Origin: Actinomycetota bacterium
GTDB taxonomy: Bacteria > Actinomycetota > Geothermincolia > Geothermincolales > RBG-13-55-18
Direction of reading: 5' to 3'
NCBI GenBank assembly: GCA_013178005.1
Contig: JABLXL010000039.1
Location: forward strand, 1 to 50,468
Length of the DNA: 50,468 bases
Both the position numbers and the translations under genes were made by a program. This document shows positions 3,611 to 35,020 of this stretch, in pieces (the stretch's first letter is position 1; each line of letters opens with the position of its first letter). Under the pieces are notes generated by a model. That model did not search any database and was not told the origin of the DNA. It saw only the letters and a list, made by a program, of their open reading frames with translations.

Positions 3611-6600
3611 TCACTTCACCTTCCTCAGGTTGACCAGGAACGCTTTCGATTCGGGGATGGTGGTGTTCGCGTCCCCTACATGGGGCGTGAGCTGGTTGGC
3701 AGCGTAGTTCTTCTTGGACATCCCGTCGCGCTCCGGCCCGCCGGGGAAGAGGCCGATGAAGCCGTAGTGCCAGGTCAAGCCCACGATGTGTACCTTCCTG
3801 GTGCTGCCGTTGTCCCCGATCTCCAATGGCTTGAGGCGGGTGGTGACCACCGCCACTCCCTGCACCTTGCCGCGCAGGCTCTCCACCTCCACCAGGTCGC
3901 CCTTCTTGATCCCCAGCTCGTCGGCGAGCTCCACCGAGAGCTCCACGAAGTTCTCCGGCATGGCCTCGCCCAGCCAGGAGTTGTTGCGGGTCATCTGGCC
4001 CGCCTGCCAGTGCTCGGTGACCCGGTAGGTGGTGCACACGTAGGGGTACCTCGAGTCCCCCACCTCGGCGAAGCCCCACTTCTCCGGCTCGTTCTTGGCC
4101 GAGGGCCACTCCAGGACCGCAGCTGGGTTGTTCTGCACGCTGGAGAGCATGTTCTTGACCGGGCTCTCCCGGGGCTCGTAGTGCTCGGGGAAGGGGCCTT
4201 CGACCAGTGAGTTGGAGAAGAGCCGCGCCACCAGCGCTCCGGGTTCCCGGTTCATGAAGAAGGAGCTAGCCCCCGAACGCGTGCGCATGGTCGCCTTGCC
4301 CACCAGCTCCTTCGGGAAGGCGGGGTCCGAGCTGGGCTGGGTGTAGAAGTCGGGCACGTCGTTCTTCAGCCCCAAGGTCTCGTCGTCCTTGAAGGTGAAG
4401 AGGGCTCTGTCGGGGGCGAAGGGCTTGCCCGACCAGTCGCAGGAGTTGCGGTTGTAGATGATGCGGCGGTTGAGCGGCCAGGCCCAGGCCCACACCGGGT
4501 AGGTGCCCACGTTGATCTTCTTGGCGTCGGCGGGCGCGTTCTCGGTGTAGATGGTAACCCCGTCCTTGTCCAGCCAGTAGAGGGGCGTCTTCTGGAAGTG
4601 CCACTGCGCCTTGTTGAAGGGGATGCCGTTCCATTCGGTGGCCTGCTTGTCCCGGGGGATCTTCACCTTGCCGTCGTCCCCCTTGGGGAGCTGGCCGTCG
4701 ATGCCCAGGATCTTCGCCGCGGTCTCGATGTCGGCGTCGCTCGCCCACTGGCCGCAGTAGATCCAGGTGCCCGAGACGGTGGAGCCGTCGTCTTTGAGGT
4801 TGGCGAAGCCGAACACCGGCTTCTTGAAGGCCGCCTCCCAGCTGAACTCGCCCTCCGGCCAGGTGTAGCCGTTGATCTCCAGCTGGACCTGCTCCAGGTC
4901 CGGCTCGCCGTGCTCGTCCTCGTCGTAGGCCCAGAAGAGCTCGGTTATGCATTCCTTGCCCTTGCCTCCCTCGGCCTTGTAGAGCTCCTTCACCGCCTTC
5001 ATGATCTGGTGCATCATCCATGCGTCCGGCTCCGCGTCTCCCGGGGGCTCCACCGCCTTCCAGCGGTACTGGGCAAGGCGGCCGGAGTTGGAGATGGAGC
5101 CCGGTTTCTCCACCGAGGAGGCGGCGGGAAGCACCCACACCTCGGTCTGGATGTCCTTGGGCTCGGCCCCGGGACGGCGCCAGAAGTTCATGGACTCCGT
5201 CTCCCAGAGGTCGGAGGCCACGAACCACTCCAGCTTATCCATGGCCGCGGCCTCAAGGTTGGAGCAAGCTCCGCCCACCACCGGGTTCTGTCCCCAAGCG
5301 ATGAGGCCCTTGATGACGCCCGCGTACATGTCCTCGAAGAGGGCGATGTGGGTGTAGTTCTTGCCCTTCTTCACCTTGGGGTGAAGGTCATAGGCCTTGT
5401 CCAGACCGTTCTTCTTAGCGTAGGGGCCGTAGTAGGCCATGAGGTAGCTGTTTATGAACCTCGGCGTCCAGCTCCAGATGCCCACCTTGGGGGTGTTCTT
5501 TTCGATGTACTTGGCGCGGTCCGGGTGGTCGGTGGAGTTGGGAACGTTGATATACCCTGGGATTATGTGGGAGAGCAGGCCGAAGTCCGTGGACCCCTGC
5601 ACGTTGCTCTCCCCGCGCAGGGCGTTGATGCCGCCGCCCGGAAGGCCGGTGTTGCCGAGGAGCGCCTGCAGGATGGCAAAAGCGCGGATCTTCTCCGTCC
5701 CGAAGGTGAACTGTGTAAGCCCCATGGCGTACATGAGGTTTCCGACCTTGTCCCGCTTGTGGGTGATGCCCACGTAGGTCTCGGCGATCTCCTTGAACTT
5801 GGCGGGATCCATGCCGCAGACCTTGGCCACCACGCTGTTGGGGCCGTCGTAGGTGTAGCGGGAGAAGTGCTCTTTGAGCTTGGCCCATACCGTGCCCGCG
5901 ATGGCCTCGTCGGGGTTGGGGATGTAGTTCCCGTTGGAGTCCTTGGGGCCGTTGGGCACGCCGCGCCCCTTGAAGGTGGGGTCCTCGGCGATGGGGATGA
6001 GCTGCACCCTCAGGGCTTCCCCGGTGGCGGGATCGTTCTGGTAGGTCCAGGTCTTGGTGTCGTACTTGCGCTTCTCCTTGTCGTAGCCGCTGAAGTAGCC
6101 GTCGAGCTCCCCGGGACCCTTGAAATCCGGGTTCACCAGGATGGGGGCGTTGGTGTAGTTCTGCACGTACTCCCAGTTGATGTAGTTCTTGTCGATGGCG
6201 TACTTGATCAGCGCCCCGAAGAAGGCGATGTCGGTGCCCGGGCGGATGAAGGAGAAGAGGTCCGCGCGGGCCGCGGAGCGGGTGAAGCGGGGATCAACCA
6301 CGATGATCTTGGCCCCTCGCTCCTCCCTGGCTGCCTCCACAAACTTCCAGGAGACGGGATGGTTCTCGCTGGGGTTGGCGCCGCAGATCATGAAGACATC
6401 CGCGTTCTTCAGGTCGATGTAGTGGTTAGTCATGGCCCCCCGGCCATACGTGCCGCCGAGACCGGCGACTGTGGCCGAGTGTCATATACGGGCCTGGTGC
6501 TCGATGTACACCAGGCCGAGGCCGCGGGCGAACTTGGAGGCCAGGTAGCACTCCTCGTTGTCCAGGGCCGCCCCTCCCAGCTGGGCGATGCCCTCGCAAC

Positions 6601-7054
6601 GGTTCGCGGTCACCTTGACGCCCTCGATCTCCTCCGTCTCCACGAAGGTGGCGTCGCGGGTGTCCTTGATGAGGCGGGCGATCCTGGGGATGGCCTCCTC
6701 CCAGGTCTTCTCCTCCCAGTCCGTGCCCCCAGGGGCCCGGTAGAGCACCTTGGTGAGCCTGCGGTCGTTGTTGGCCACCTGGTAGATGGACTGCCCCTTG
6801 GAGCAGAGGCTCGCCCGGTTGATGGGGCTGTCGGGGAGGCCCTCCAGTCCTACGATCTTTCCGTCCTTGACGCTCACGATGGCGGAGCACCCCACGGAGC
6901 AGTAGGGACACACCGTGGTGGTCTCCGTGGCCTCGCTGATGCGAAGCTCCTCGGAAGCGGCGAGGGCGGTGGCGGAGAACCCGAGTTGGGCGAGGGCCGT
7001 GACGCCTATTCCGGCGCCCGACAGCTTGAGGAAACTTCTTCGCGAAAGTTCCAT
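3611..7054 (-). CDS. fdhA: Selenocysteine-containing formate dehydrogenase catalytic subunit, Tat-exported
   Basis: This Mo- or W-pterin enzyme oxidises formate to CO2. The frame runs from 7054 to 3611 through one TGA at 6484-6482, giving 1147 residues with Sec at residue 191. Seen directly: the Tat signal 'LSRRSFLKLSG' followed by a hydrophobic stretch, then 'CPYCSVGCSAIV' for a [4Fe-4S] cluster. Next is 'HQAR-I-Sec-HSATVAGLGG', which matches the Sec context of FdnG-type enzymes, and the frame continues into 'GRGAMTNHYIDLKNADV'. A SECIS hairpin lies just after the UGA. Without recoding, the 5' part would encode a useless 190-residue fragment. The ATG at 7054 is favoured because GGGGGA precedes it by four bases; a GTG at 7066 is in frame. 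The protein is about 130 residues longer than E. coli FdnG, by my recollection of that family. fdhE and tatAC lie upstream, which fits maturation and export. Confidence 0.96.
6452..6484 (-). promoter_or_regulatory. Bacterial SECIS element and UGA-Sec codon of fdhA
   Basis: The UGA occupies 6484-6482. A 7-bp stem (GUCGCCG / CGGCGGC, one G-U pair) spans 6469-6452 with GUCU in the loop. The GGUCU apical sequence begins 19 nt after the UGA, the same spacing I recall for E. coli fdhF, where GGUCU binds SelB. The element lies inside the coding sequence, as expected for bacteria. Confidence 0.88.
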
Positions 7055-10325: not shown

Positions 10326-12038
10326 TCAGCGGCTCGCGTCCTGACCGCCGGCCTTCTGGATGACCGAGGTGTCGACGTAGATGGAAACGGCGTTCGACTG
10401 CAGGACTGCGACGCCGTCCCTGATGGCGTAGACGCGATAGTTGTACGTGTACCCCATGTAGAGCTCTCGGTCGATGAAGGAGTAGTCACGGGCGCCCGGC
10501 GAGAAGCCCCACGAAAGCATGCCCGAAACGGGAGGATAGCTCGGCAGCTGGTTCATCTCCGCGCGCACCAGGGCGTAGGAGTCCGCGCGCGGGTCTCCTT
10601 CCACGTGCCAGGTCAGTTCTATCACCGGCCTTCCACCGCCGCCGTCTATGACCCTGCCGCTGAGGGTCATCGCCGGTTTGACCTCGGGTATAGACAGCTT
10701 GACGACGTTGCTGTACACCATGCCTCCGTCGTGCCGAACGGCAAGGCGGTAGGAATAGGTCGTGCCCGGCTGCACCTGAGCGTCCAGGTAACTCCTCGCT
10801 CCGCCCGCCAGGCGGGCCAACACGTCGCCGGGATAGGCGGGCTCCCTCCCCGCGGAGCGCAGGAGGATGAACTCCTGCGCCGCTCCGTTCCTGATCTCCC
10901 ACGACAGGGAAACGCCGGCCTTCTGCACCGTTCCCTCCAGGGAGAGCTCCGGTTGTCCAACCTCCCCGTCCGGGTTTTCCCCACCGTTCCCTCCATCAGG
11001 CGGGGGCGTGGGCTGCGGTTGCGGGGATTCCCCGCTCTCCATGCGCGCGATCTCAAGCGCGGCCGTATCCGGTTCCCCCACCTCCGAAAGCACGCCCAGA
11101 TCCCATCCCCGCTCCCGGTCGAGGAGGCGGTTCCAGAGCAGCCACTCGTCCAGAAGGACGTCCGCCCTGATATCCTCGATCAGGCTCGCAATCCCACCCT
11201 CTCCCAGGAGGTCCGGCAGCGTGCACATCTTGCCCTCGGCCATCACCTCGCTTCCCGTTCCCCCCTGCAACACCTCGACCGCCACCTCGCCGTCGATCGC
11301 CAATAGCACGGGGTCTGGTCCCTTGAGGTTGAGGTCGAAGACGGTGCCCCGTGCCTCCGCCTGCAACCCTCCTCCGAACACCCGCAGAGGAACGCCGTGG
11401 GCGCGGAAATATCCCCTCCCCTGGCGCAGTTGCATGGAGATTCCGCTCTCCGCCACCGCCATGAGGTCGGCCTCGCTGCCCGAATCCAGGCGCGCCAGGT
11501 TTCGCCCGCCGAATGCCAGCTCCGCCCTCGAGCCCTCGGGGACGCGCACGGAGCTTCCGGCCGCCAGGAAAAACGGTGGCGACTGACGGGACCATTCGCC
11601 TCCCGGCGGCCTCACCTCCACGTCGCCGGTGGCGAAAACCCATGCCTCCGCCTCGGCCAGTTTCAGGGTGGGCGGAACGCTCACCACCCCGGGGCCGGTG
11701 AGAACCACCGAAGACACCACCAGCGCCACGGCAAGCATGGCCGCCGCCGCCATGGCGGCATATGAGGCTCGCCAGGGCTCCGCAACCCGTACGCGGCGAG
11801 CGGGATCCCCCTCCCTCTTTGCCCTCTCCTGGAGAAAGCGCCGCTGGCATTCCTCCACCCTCTCCCCGATGCGCCGCTGCGCTTCCTCCGAGGGCCCCGG
11901 CTCGCACCTGGACACGATCGAGAGCAGGGAGGCCAGCCTCTCCAAGTCCCTCAATTCGGGATCGAGTGAGACCGCCTCGCCCGGCTCACCCGTTTCGAGC
12001 GCGCGGGAGATCAGGTCCGCCTTGAGCCTTCCCCTCAA
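10326..12038 (-). CDS. FecR-domain membrane protein, likely partner of the adjacent ECF sigma factor
   Basis: This 570-residue protein has three parts. A cytoplasmic N-terminal segment of about 110 residues is followed by one membrane helix ('AAMAAAAMLAVALVVSSVVL'). Then comes a FecR-like beta domain of roughly 150-330 ('VRVPEGSRAELAFGGRNLARLDSGSEADL' region). After a Pro-rich linker ('SPQPQPTPPPDGGNGG') there are two fibronectin-III-like domains, each ending with a 'Y.YRL/Y.YRV' strand. The arrangement fits a membrane anti-sigma factor or sigma regulator with an exported sensor part. The start is a TTG only 6 nt past the sigma stop and in the same frame, using the sigma gene's terminal GAGGAAGG as ribosome-binding site, which implies coupled translation. 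Its first codons lie in a 149-bp tandem duplication. No zinc-binding anti-sigma motif is visible, so regulation of the sigma factor is inferred from position. Confidence 0.75.
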   Translation of the reverse strand: MRGRLKADLISRALETGEPGEAVSLDPELRDLERLASLLSIVSRCEPGPSEEAQRRIGERVEECQRRFLQERAKREGDPARRVRVAEPWRASYAAMAAAAMLAVALVVSSVVLTGPGVVSVPPTLKLAEAEAWVFATGDVEVRPPGGEWSRQSPPFFLAAGSSVRVPEGSRAELAFGGRNLARLDSGSEADLMAVAESGISMQLRQGRGYFRAHGVPLRVFGGGLQAEARGTVFDLNLKGPDPVLLAIDGEVAVEVLQGGTGSEVMAEGKMCTLPDLLGEGGIASLIEDIRADVLLDEWLLWNRLLDRERGWDLGVLSEVGEPDTAALEIARMESGESPQPQPTPPPDGGNGGENPDGEVGQPELSLEGTVQKAGVSLSWEIRNGAAQEFILLRSAGREPAYPGDVLARLAGGARSYLDAQVQPGTTYSYRLAVRHDGGMVYSNVVKLSIPEVKPAMTLSGRVIDGGGGRPVIELTWHVEGDPRADSYALVRAEMNQLPSYPPVSGMLSWGFSPGARDYSFIDRELYMGYTYNYRVYAIRDGVAVLQSNAVSIYVDTSVIQKAGGQDASR

Positions 12039-12260
12039 CCTCGCTCACATCCCTTCCTCGAGCAGTCCGGCCTCCGCGGCCGCTTTCCGCAAGGCGCGCA
12101 GGCTGCGGTATAGAGCGAGACCGCCTCGCCCGGCTCACCCGTTTCGAGCGCGCGGGAGATCAGGTCCGCTTTGAGCCTTCCCCTCAACCTCGCTCACATC
12201 CCTTCCTCGAGCAGTCCGGCCTCCGCGGCCGCTTTCCGCAAGGCGCGCAGGCTGCGGTAT
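11965..12260. repeat. 149-bp tandem duplication at the sigma/FecR gene junction
   Basis: Positions 11965-12111 and 12114-12260 are near-identical copies at an offset of 149 bp, with about two mismatches (for example c/t at 12027 versus 12176). Each copy holds the last codons of the sigma gene plus the first codons of the FecR-like gene. The complete sigma gene uses the distal copy and the complete FecR gene the proximal one, leaving a fused remnant of both between them. Confidence 0.9.
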
Positions 12261-12787
12261 ATCTTCATGCTCAGCGTCTTCTTGTTCACCCCCAGCACCT
12301 CGCACATCTCATCGTGATCCAGGCCCTGGTAGAACTTCAACGCCAGGATGTGCTGGTAGGAAAGGGGCAAGCGGCGCACTAGGTCCATGAGTAACGCCAC
12401 CCTCTCCATTTCCTCCTCCCCGGCGCCCATGGGAGACCTGAGCACCCCCTCCAGGTCCTGCAGCGAGGTCTCCCTGCGCCTTCCCTCGCGCCGGTAGTAA
12501 TCCACCAGGTTGTTGGTGGCGATACGATACAGCCATGCCGAGAAGGAAACCTCCTTCCACTGGAATGTCTCCAGGTGCCGCAAGGCTTTCTCGAAGGTGG
12601 TGGCGGTGAGGTCCTCCGCTGCCTCCGCGTTTCCCGTCCTCCTCAGGAGGTAGCGGTAGATTAGTGGCATGTAGTGTTCGTACAGCTCCGAGAAGGCTTG
12701 CGGGGAGGAACGCGCCCTCTCCACCAACTCCCGTTCCTTTTCCGGCTCCATGCGCTCGAGAGCCAGGGAAACAAGTAGCGCCAGCAT
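12194..12787 (-). CDS. ECF-type RNA polymerase sigma factor
   Basis: This 197-residue sigma-70 family protein consists of regions 2 and 4 only. Region 2 lies around residues 28-95 ('FSELYEHYMPLIYRYLLRR', then 'FSAWLYRIATNNLVDYYRR'). Region 4 is near 135-190 ('LPLSYQHILALKFYQGLDHDEMCEVLGV', then the helix 'NKKTLSMKIYRSLRALRKA'). It redirects RNA polymerase to a small regulon, probably in response to a signal read by the FecR-like protein encoded next. The start at 12787 has AGAAGGG very close; a start at the later Met of 'MEPEKEREL' (12751) would remove an oddly hydrophobic leader and is possible. The stop lies inside the 149-bp duplication. Confidence 0.9.
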   Translation of the reverse strand: MLALLVSLALERMEPEKERELVERARSSPQAFSELYEHYMPLIYRYLLRRTGNAEAAEDLTATTFEKALRHLETFQWKEVSFSAWLYRIATNNLVDYYRREGRRRETSLQDLEGVLRSPMGAGEEEMERVALLMDLVRRLPLSYQHILALKFYQGLDHDEMCEVLGVNKKTLSMKIYRSLRALRKAAAEAGLLEEGM

Positions 12788-22121: not shown

Positions 22122-22243
22122 GGCGCATTGGATGTATTGCAGGCATGTGCTTTTCACGTGCTTTTTAGTGAACCAGCAACCTCTGCCTTGCAAGGGCAGC
22201 GTTCTCCTTGGCGCATTGGATGTATTGCAGGCATGCGCTTTTC
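22122..22243. repeat. 34-bp direct repeat, offset 88 bp, downstream of two tRNA-like sequences
   Basis: Copies at 22122-22155 and 22210-22243 share the core 'gcgcattggatgtattgcag' with one mismatch late in the unit. On the minus strand one copy follows the tRNA at 22269-22362 and the other follows the tRNA-Ala-like fragment at 22168-22207. It may be a shared tRNA 3' trailer. Confidence 0.75.
22168..22207 (-). pseudogene. Fragment resembling the middle of a tRNA-Ala (UGC)
   Basis: On the minus strand this reads as an anticodon arm (CTGCC, loop CTTGCAA, GGCAG; anticodon UGC) flanked by D-stem-like GGAGAACG and by the start of a T arm (GCTGGTTCA), then breaks off. There is no 5' acceptor half, D loop or closing T stem. 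It looks like a truncated tRNA caught between two direct repeats. Confidence 0.35.
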
Positions 22244-22268: not shown

Positions 22269-22362
22269 TGGAGGGAGGCAGTGGGGATCGAACCCACCCC
22301 GGCTTTCTCAGGGCCGGCCAACGGGTTTGCAGCCCGCGGGGGACACCAGTCCCGTGCCTCCC
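22269..22362 (-). tRNA. tRNA-Sec-shaped tRNA with a GCA (Cys) anticodon
   Basis: This 94-nt tRNA has an encoded CCA end. Its acceptor stem is 8 bp (GGGAGGCA / TGCCTCCC) and its T arm 5 bp (GTGGG TTCGATC CCCAC), giving the 13-bp 8/5 stack of bacterial tRNA-Sec. The D arm has a 5-bp stem and a 4-nt TGGT loop. There is no U at position 8. The variable arm is about 22 nt with a CCGGC/GCCGG stem. All of these are tRNA-Sec traits. The anticodon loop is CTGCAAA, however, so the anticodon is GCA (positions 22330-22328) and reads UGC/UGU. The discriminator is U73, as in tRNA-Cys, not the usual G73 of tRNA-Sec. It is probably either charged by CysRS while mimicking tRNA-Sec, or a sense-codon tRNA-Sec. 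It cannot read UGA by standard pairing. Confidence 0.9.
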
Positions 22363-34418: not shown

Positions 34419-35020
34419 GACCGCGGCCGGTTTCCGGCCGCGGTCTTGCCGTAACGGGTTCGGGACACCGGCCAGCCCTCTTCCCAGGCATCCTTTCCCC
34501 TACCTCATATCTTGAAAACCGCGCCGGACTAACCGACCAGGCTGGTTTCCCCGAGAGCGGCCGTTAACCGGCAGGCCGCGGTCTTGCCGTAACGGGTTCG
34601 GGACACTGGCCAGCCCTCTTCCCAGGCATCCTTTCCCCTACCTCATATCTTGAAAACCGCGCCGGACTAACCGACCAGGCTGGTTTCCCCGAGAGCGGCC
34701 GTTAACCGGCAGGCCGCGGTCTTGCCGTAACGGGTTCGGGACACTGGCCAGCCCTCTTCCCAGGCATCCTTTCCCCTACCTCATATCTTGAAAACCGCGC
34801 CGGACTAACCGACCAGGCTGGTTTCCCCGAGAGCGGCCGTTAACCGGCAGGCCGCGGTCTTGCCGTAACGGGTTCGGGACACTGGCCCATGCGCTTTCCC
34901 GGCATCCTTCCCCATAGCAAACATCCCGGAAACCGCGCCGGGCCAACCGACCAGACTTACTTTCCCGACCGCGACCGTTAACGGCAGGCCGCGGTCTTGC
35001 CGTAACGGGCTCGGTACGTA
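34419..35020. repeat. 138-bp tandem repeat array downstream of the terminator
   Basis: The string cggtcttgccgtaacggg recurs at 34441, 34579, 34717, 34855 and 34992, giving periods of 138, 138, 138 and 137 bp. The middle units are identical or nearly so; the last is clearly diverged. Each unit carries a GC-rich inverted repeat (gagcggccgttaaccggcaggc region) derived from the second terminator hairpin, so the array looks like a multiplied terminator. No reading frame or spacer-like variability exists, so it is not a CRISPR. Confidence 0.93.

Follow-up and report, generated by a model that had tools for sequence, protein, structure and literature searches.

The gene at positions 22269–22362 (minus strand) of the window, by which we mean the whole 50,468-nt stretch of DNA analysed, raises the question of what a tRNA does when its body belongs to one family and its identity elements to another. 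ARAGORN reports a single tRNA in the window, 94 nt long and at exactly this place, and calls it tRNA-Cys with anticodon GCA at nucleotides 33–35, while Rfam assigns the same interval to tRNA-Sec (RF01852; 65 bits, gathering score 47; E = 4.4e–11). Our covariance model R1, described below, gives it 112.4 bits. The two labels are a warning for annotation, as such tRNAs are named plain tRNA-Cys by one program and tRNA-Sec by the other.

Read on the minus strand, the 5′ half of the gene is GGGAGGCA C GGGAC TGGT GTCCC CC GCGGG CTGCAAA CCCGT TGG and the 3′ half is CCGGC CCTGAGAAA GCCGG G GTGGG TTCGATC CCCAC TGCCTCCC T CCA. The acceptor stem (GGGAGGCA/TGCCTCCC) has 8 bp and the T arm (GTGGG-TTCGATC-CCCAC) a 5-bp stem with no bulge, which makes an 8/5, 13-bp acceptor/T branch. 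The D arm (GGGAC-TGGT-GTCCC, with the flanking C-C unpaired) has a 5-bp stem and a 4-nt loop, the anticodon arm is GCGGG CTGCAAA CCCGT, and the long variable arm has a CCGGC/GCCGG stem that encloses CCTGAGAAA. The single-sequence minimum-energy fold reproduces every arm but moves the border between acceptor and T stem by one pair. The sequence-only reading had named the 8-bp acceptor, the 5-bp T stem, the 4-nt D loop, the absence of U8 and the long variable arm, and direct reading bears all of them out. Its phrase 'complete tRNA-Sec architecture' holds overall, but the D stem, with 5 bp, is one pair short of the canonical 6, and a single nucleotide (C) links it to the acceptor stem. The GCA anticodon in the loop CTGCAAA (22328–22330, minus strand; sequence and ARAGORN) and the discriminator U73 (22272, minus strand), also named there, are both present, and U73 as well as the 3′ CCA (22271–22269) is encoded in the DNA. 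U73 and GCA are the main determinants for CysRS (PMC7609411), and a 13-bp branch is preferred by SelB and disfavoured by EF-Tu. The idea of a hybrid, a tRNA-Sec body with Cys identity, was right. On the strand of the tRNA, no sigma-70 site turned up in a promoter scan. Just 3′ of the gene lies a 26-nt exact direct repeat (22122–22147 and 22210–22235) that is missing from the other loci compared.

The host genome (3.6 Mb in 98 contigs, 97% complete) has three tRNAs of concern here: a normal tRNA-Sec, a normal tRNA-Cys and the hybrid. Both companions that the sequence-only reading had proposed to look for, a second selC with UCA and an ordinary tRNA-Cys, are therefore there. Canonical selC (UCA, G73, 6-bp D stem, 78.8 bits) lies on contig 49 in the order selD-yedF-selA-selB-selC, and the window tRNA is 65% identical to it. 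The ordinary tRNA-Cys is of the 7/5 type and the single cysS is full-length and normal, so the hybrid is not needed for Cys codons; no cysS* was found in this genome. One SelB scores above the cut-off. Contig 19 holds another selB-family match (203 bits, under the cut-off), which resembles EF-Tu and adjoins EF-G, and we rejected it as a SelB*.

Several known classes of tRNA resemble the gene in part. It shares with canonical selC the 8/5 branch, the 4-nt D loop, the long variable arm and the lack of U8, and differs from it by GCA in place of UCA, by U73 in place of G73, by a D stem of 5 rather than 6 bp and by A:U rather than C:G at the eighth pair; the discriminator and the D stem exclude it from tRNA-Sec proper. 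An ordinary tRNA-Cys (7/5, short variable region, U8) does not match an 8/5 tRNA with a long variable arm. Closer is tRNAReC of Desulfotomaculum nigrificans (Vargas-Rodriguez et al. 2018, RNA Biol). As summarised in PMC11415595, the D. nigrificans homologue decodes Sec UGA with Cys, is delivered by SelB and does not interact with EF-Tu. The two have the tRNA-Sec-like body, GCA, Cys identity and a Sec system alongside in common; the hosts belong to different phyla, and the likeness is one of description. Allo-tRNA (Mukai 2017, via the review PMC7609411) also has a tRNA-Sec-like outline, but it is described there with a 12-bp branch (8/4 or 9/3) and Ser/Ala identity, and the 13-bp branch and U73 of the window tRNA set it outside that group.

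The selC* tRNA-Cys (Mukai 2017, NAR, again via PMC7609411) has the 8-bp acceptor, long variable arm, U73 and GCA of our tRNA, and tRNA-selB* pairs, which occur in the relatives of the window tRNA. Its 8/4 branch carries an A51a bulge as a striking feature, whereas the window copy has an unbulged 8/5 branch, in a genome with a single selB and lacking cysS*. The review reports that the bulge is dispensable for charging; since, in addition, the copies that we found in Bacillota and Nitrospirota are mostly 8/5, we do not regard the 8/4 bulge as a requirement of the wider class. By its sequence features, the window tRNA is a member of the published tRNAReC/selC* tRNA-Cys class: it has the tRNA-Sec-like cloverleaf, U73 with GCA (the class also admits UCA), and a canonical tRNA-Sec and SelB in the same genome, and of the features tested only the 8/4 branch with A51a is absent. 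The review names Firmicutes, Thermodesulfobacteria, Nitrospirae and Proteobacteria as selC* hosts, and gives selB* pairs for Syntrophobacterales and Desulfobacterales only (PMC7609411). An Actinomycetota host, a clean 8/5 form and tRNA-SelB* pairs in that phylum and in Nitrospirota would extend these accounts, though the 2018 survey may include some of them.

An Rfam tRNA-Sec search over 59 relatives returned second, weaker matches in several genomes. Reading them revealed nine further GCA/U73 tRNAs from the class or phylum of the host, and the best matches, among those read, were UCA/G73 selC. Over 14 homologues 97.2% of cells are paired and 19 of the 28 pairs show compensatory changes, values far above those of all 500 shuffles and of every slid register. 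Model R1 was built from the GCA/U73 copies and could under-sample intermediates; despite this basis, it still recovers much lower-scoring UCA/G73 copies. In the host class 12 of 31 genomes are carriers by this model, each with a second match of tRNA-Sec type as well, and the scores are bimodal (86–113 bits for the hybrid, at most 67 for tRNA-Sec). Carriers number 28 of 396 genomes in the host-phylum draw, 25 of 398 in Bacillota and 30 of 198 in Nitrospirota, 83 genomes in three phyla altogether, and the tRNA is no isolated case. Across 100 aligned matches GCA goes with U73 (83/83) and UCA with G73 (17/17), with no exceptions. Together with the nine relatives, this linkage excludes a sequencing error (TTTGAAG read as TTTGCAG), one of the refuting cases considered in advance. 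The other, an ordinary class II tRNA, is rejected by the covariation, the partition of identity elements and the relatives' copies.

In a tree with the anticodon and the 3′ end left out, one common origin for all GCA copies is not rejected (p-AU = 0.445), a result obtained from few columns and with many open forks. The window copy is 75–77% identical to two GCA/U73 tRNAs from Bacillota (L068 and, in Carboxydothermus, L123). Several family members retain the flanking radical-SAM and S8 protease genes in the same order beside the tRNA. The tRNA is missing from several close relatives (for example G001 and G007), and many SelB-positive relatives do without it, so it is dispensable. A degenerate DNA pattern run over genome contigs proved too loose, with 119 stretches and a long GCA tRNA by ARAGORN in 6 of them. 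Unusual forms were also seen. Five GCA/U73 tRNAs of the Nitrospirota draw (L342, L344, L345 and L346 at 1501–1627; L334 at 1501–1619) are 119–127 nt long and have an outsized variable arm, apparently with room for one more hairpin, and in the four of 127 nt (L342, L344, L345, L346) the D loop is enlarged too. A Bacillota MAG, G398 (L280), has two UCA tRNA-Sec genes plus an outlying GCA/U73 tRNA (54.7 bits) and is possibly a mixed bin.

The tRNA is associated with SelB, which is present in 81 of the 83 carrier genomes. In the host-phylum draw SelB was found in 27 of 28 carriers versus 191 of 368 non-carriers (Fisher exact test, P = 1.2e–6, a value that ignores kinship), and in the Bacillota and Nitrospirota draws in 54 of 55 carriers. 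The two carriers with no SelB over the cut-off are G969 and G117 (L261), the latter a 97% complete MAG in which either a contig is missing or the tRNA is a relic. Ten tRNA-SelB neighbour pairs occur in nine genomes, with SelB directly downstream and mostly 30–170 nt away. Six of these genomes belong to the host phylum (G032, G255, G275, G311, G335, G351), and each of them combines an 8/4 tRNA, bulged in the T stem, with a second SelB. The 8/4 bulged form is found in 8 of the 28 host-phylum carriers, and the window tRNA and its close relatives are 8/5 without a bulge; the 8/5 form is common beside the 8/4 arm that the sequence-only reading had named. As to the two remaining 8/4 carriers, G097 has an apparent decayed second SelB and G235 has none on its short contig. 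With at most one SelB in each of the other 20 genomes, the window's included, pairing with a dedicated SelB stands at 6 of 8 against 0 of 20 in the host phylum (Fisher exact test, P = 7e–5, again ignoring kinship). The rule fails for the pairs of the Nitrospirota draw (G399 twice, G963, G977), whose tRNAs are 8/5. Two genomes deserve mention on their own. In G097 (L254, 1803–2955) SelB-like pieces lie downstream of the 8/4 tRNA and are probably a decaying SelB*. G399, a Nitrospira-labelled MAG, has two GCA/U73 tRNAs on contigs C62 and C142 (L275, L281), each with its own SelB within about 50 nt.

A possible substrate for such a system lies in the window itself. Two table-11 ORFs on the minus strand (3611–6433 and 6482–7054) flank an in-frame TGA, and joined through it (TGA = U) they give a frame open from 7054 to 3611 that encodes a formate dehydrogenase alpha subunit, a selenoprotein. 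The UGA, a Sec codon, is at 6482–6484 (residue 191, in the motif ...HQARIUHSATVAGLGGTYGRGAMTNHY...). Directly 3′ of it a SECIS-like hairpin is predicted (6441–6477, minus strand; –22.8 kcal/mol, z = –2.34 versus shuffles), whose apical loop region is GGUCU, as in E. coli fdhF; as modelled, the hairpin is what is expected of a bacterial SECIS after a TGA. The tRNA had been placed beside UGA-Sec genes. One such gene is indeed in the window, but about 15 kb away from the tRNA. We regard its UGA as one that tRNA-Sec and the hybrid may both decode. Elsewhere in the window there are a tandem repeat at 34436–35014 (138-bp unit, 4.2 copies, 93% alike) and a 149-bp tandem duplication at 11957–12261 (97% alike) that spans the boundary of two predicted genes.

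We consider it quite probable, from sequence and by analogy with D. nigrificans, that this tRNA-Sec body with Cys identity is charged by CysRS, delivered by SelB and used to insert Cys at SECIS-marked UGA. Charging with Cys would follow from U73 and GCA. The 13-bp branch and the long variable arm, along with the SelB linkage in relatives, suggest that the product is cargo of SelB and not of EF-Tu. SelB bound to a SECIS would then bring Cys-tRNA to the recoded UGA, as reported for the D. nigrificans homologue, where GCA would mispair at the third base and Cys would be inserted instead of Sec. Its probable value is as a reserve: with selenium or Sec-tRNA scarce, selenoproteins like the window's formate dehydrogenase could still be made at full length. 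Delivery of Cys via SelB was one of the options raised at the outset, and it is the best supported, matching the experimentally described tRNAReC class as summarised in PMC11415595. Several points speak against it: the eighth acceptor pair discussed below, the two carriers with no SelB over the cut-off, the many SelB-positive relatives that do without the tRNA, and the anticodon, for GCA pairs properly with UGC/UGU and not with UGA.

That same pairing invites other explanations, the least improbable of which, though unlikely, is a minor tRNA-Cys that EF-Tu delivers to ordinary UGC/UGU codons, its tRNA-Sec-like body being an evolutionary leftover. A C:G eighth pair of the acceptor branch is part of the EF-Tu antideterminant (PMC11231383); this pair is C:G in the host's selC and A:U in the window tRNA and in 68 of 81 GCA homologues, and C:G in none of the 81. 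Some use of EF-Tu is therefore possible, and the hybrid may bind it better than tRNA-Sec does; long acceptor stems, too, are weakly bound by EF-Tu (PMC11231383). However, the genome already has its 7/5 tRNA-Cys, the 13-bp branch is maintained with covariation, the association with SelB is strong and includes tRNA-SelB* pairs, and the D. nigrificans homologue is reported not to interact with EF-Tu (PMC11415595). Proper pairing could also be reconciled with a SelB-type body if SelB brought Cys to SECIS-marked UGC/UGU, site-specifically at former Sec sites, rather than to UGA. We hold this to be slightly less likely still, in view of the UGA activity reported for the homologue (PMC11415595), and no SECIS-marked UGC gene was seen in the loci examined.

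A tRNA-Sec for sense codons is known from Aeromonas salmonicida, where, according to PMC11415595 (citing Mukai 2016), a tRNA-Sec body with GCA, as in the window, delivers Sec to Cys codons. For our tRNA, loading with Sec by SerRS and SelA and delivery to UGC is very improbable, and the corresponding proposal of the sequence-only reading is disfavoured. SerRS needs G73 and the sixth D-stem pair favours SelA (PMC7609411), so that U73, present in 83 of 83 GCA copies, removes the one determinant and the 5-bp D stem weakens the other; moreover, a UCA/G73 selC is in the same genome. A non-translational decoy or regulator, titrating SelB or CysRS at low selenium, would make use of the SelB-type body, and sequestration of Sec-tRNA by surplus SelB has been proposed (PMC8124441). 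Nothing points to such a role, which we find improbable: the encoded CCA, the intact loops, the conserved anticodon and A37 suggest use on the ribosome, and a decoy does not require a fixed GCA or U73. Absence from close relatives such as those mentioned above would suit a decayed pseudogene or an assembly artefact, but compensatory changes, kept identity elements and occurrence in three phyla leave this with a negligible chance.

On the preferred reading, delivery of Cys to UGA by SelB, the survey points beyond the single locus. We put at about even chances the broader proposal that bacteria of at least three phyla, one of them (that of the host) absent from the review's list, can read SECIS-marked UGA as either Sec or Cys, an extra layer of the code that would be widespread and drawn on under certain conditions, and that the host phylum holds two designs of it, an 8/5 (13-bp) tRNA that shares the ordinary SelB and an 8/4 (12-bp) tRNA with a dedicated SelB*. 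The contrast between 8/5 with one SelB and 8/4 with a second SelB is a comparison ready-made in nature for studying how SelB gauges its cargo. A class of tRNA described from a few anaerobes turns out to be common in three phylum draws, which makes the carriers good places to test whether Cys is deliberately placed at Sec codons under selenium scarcity.
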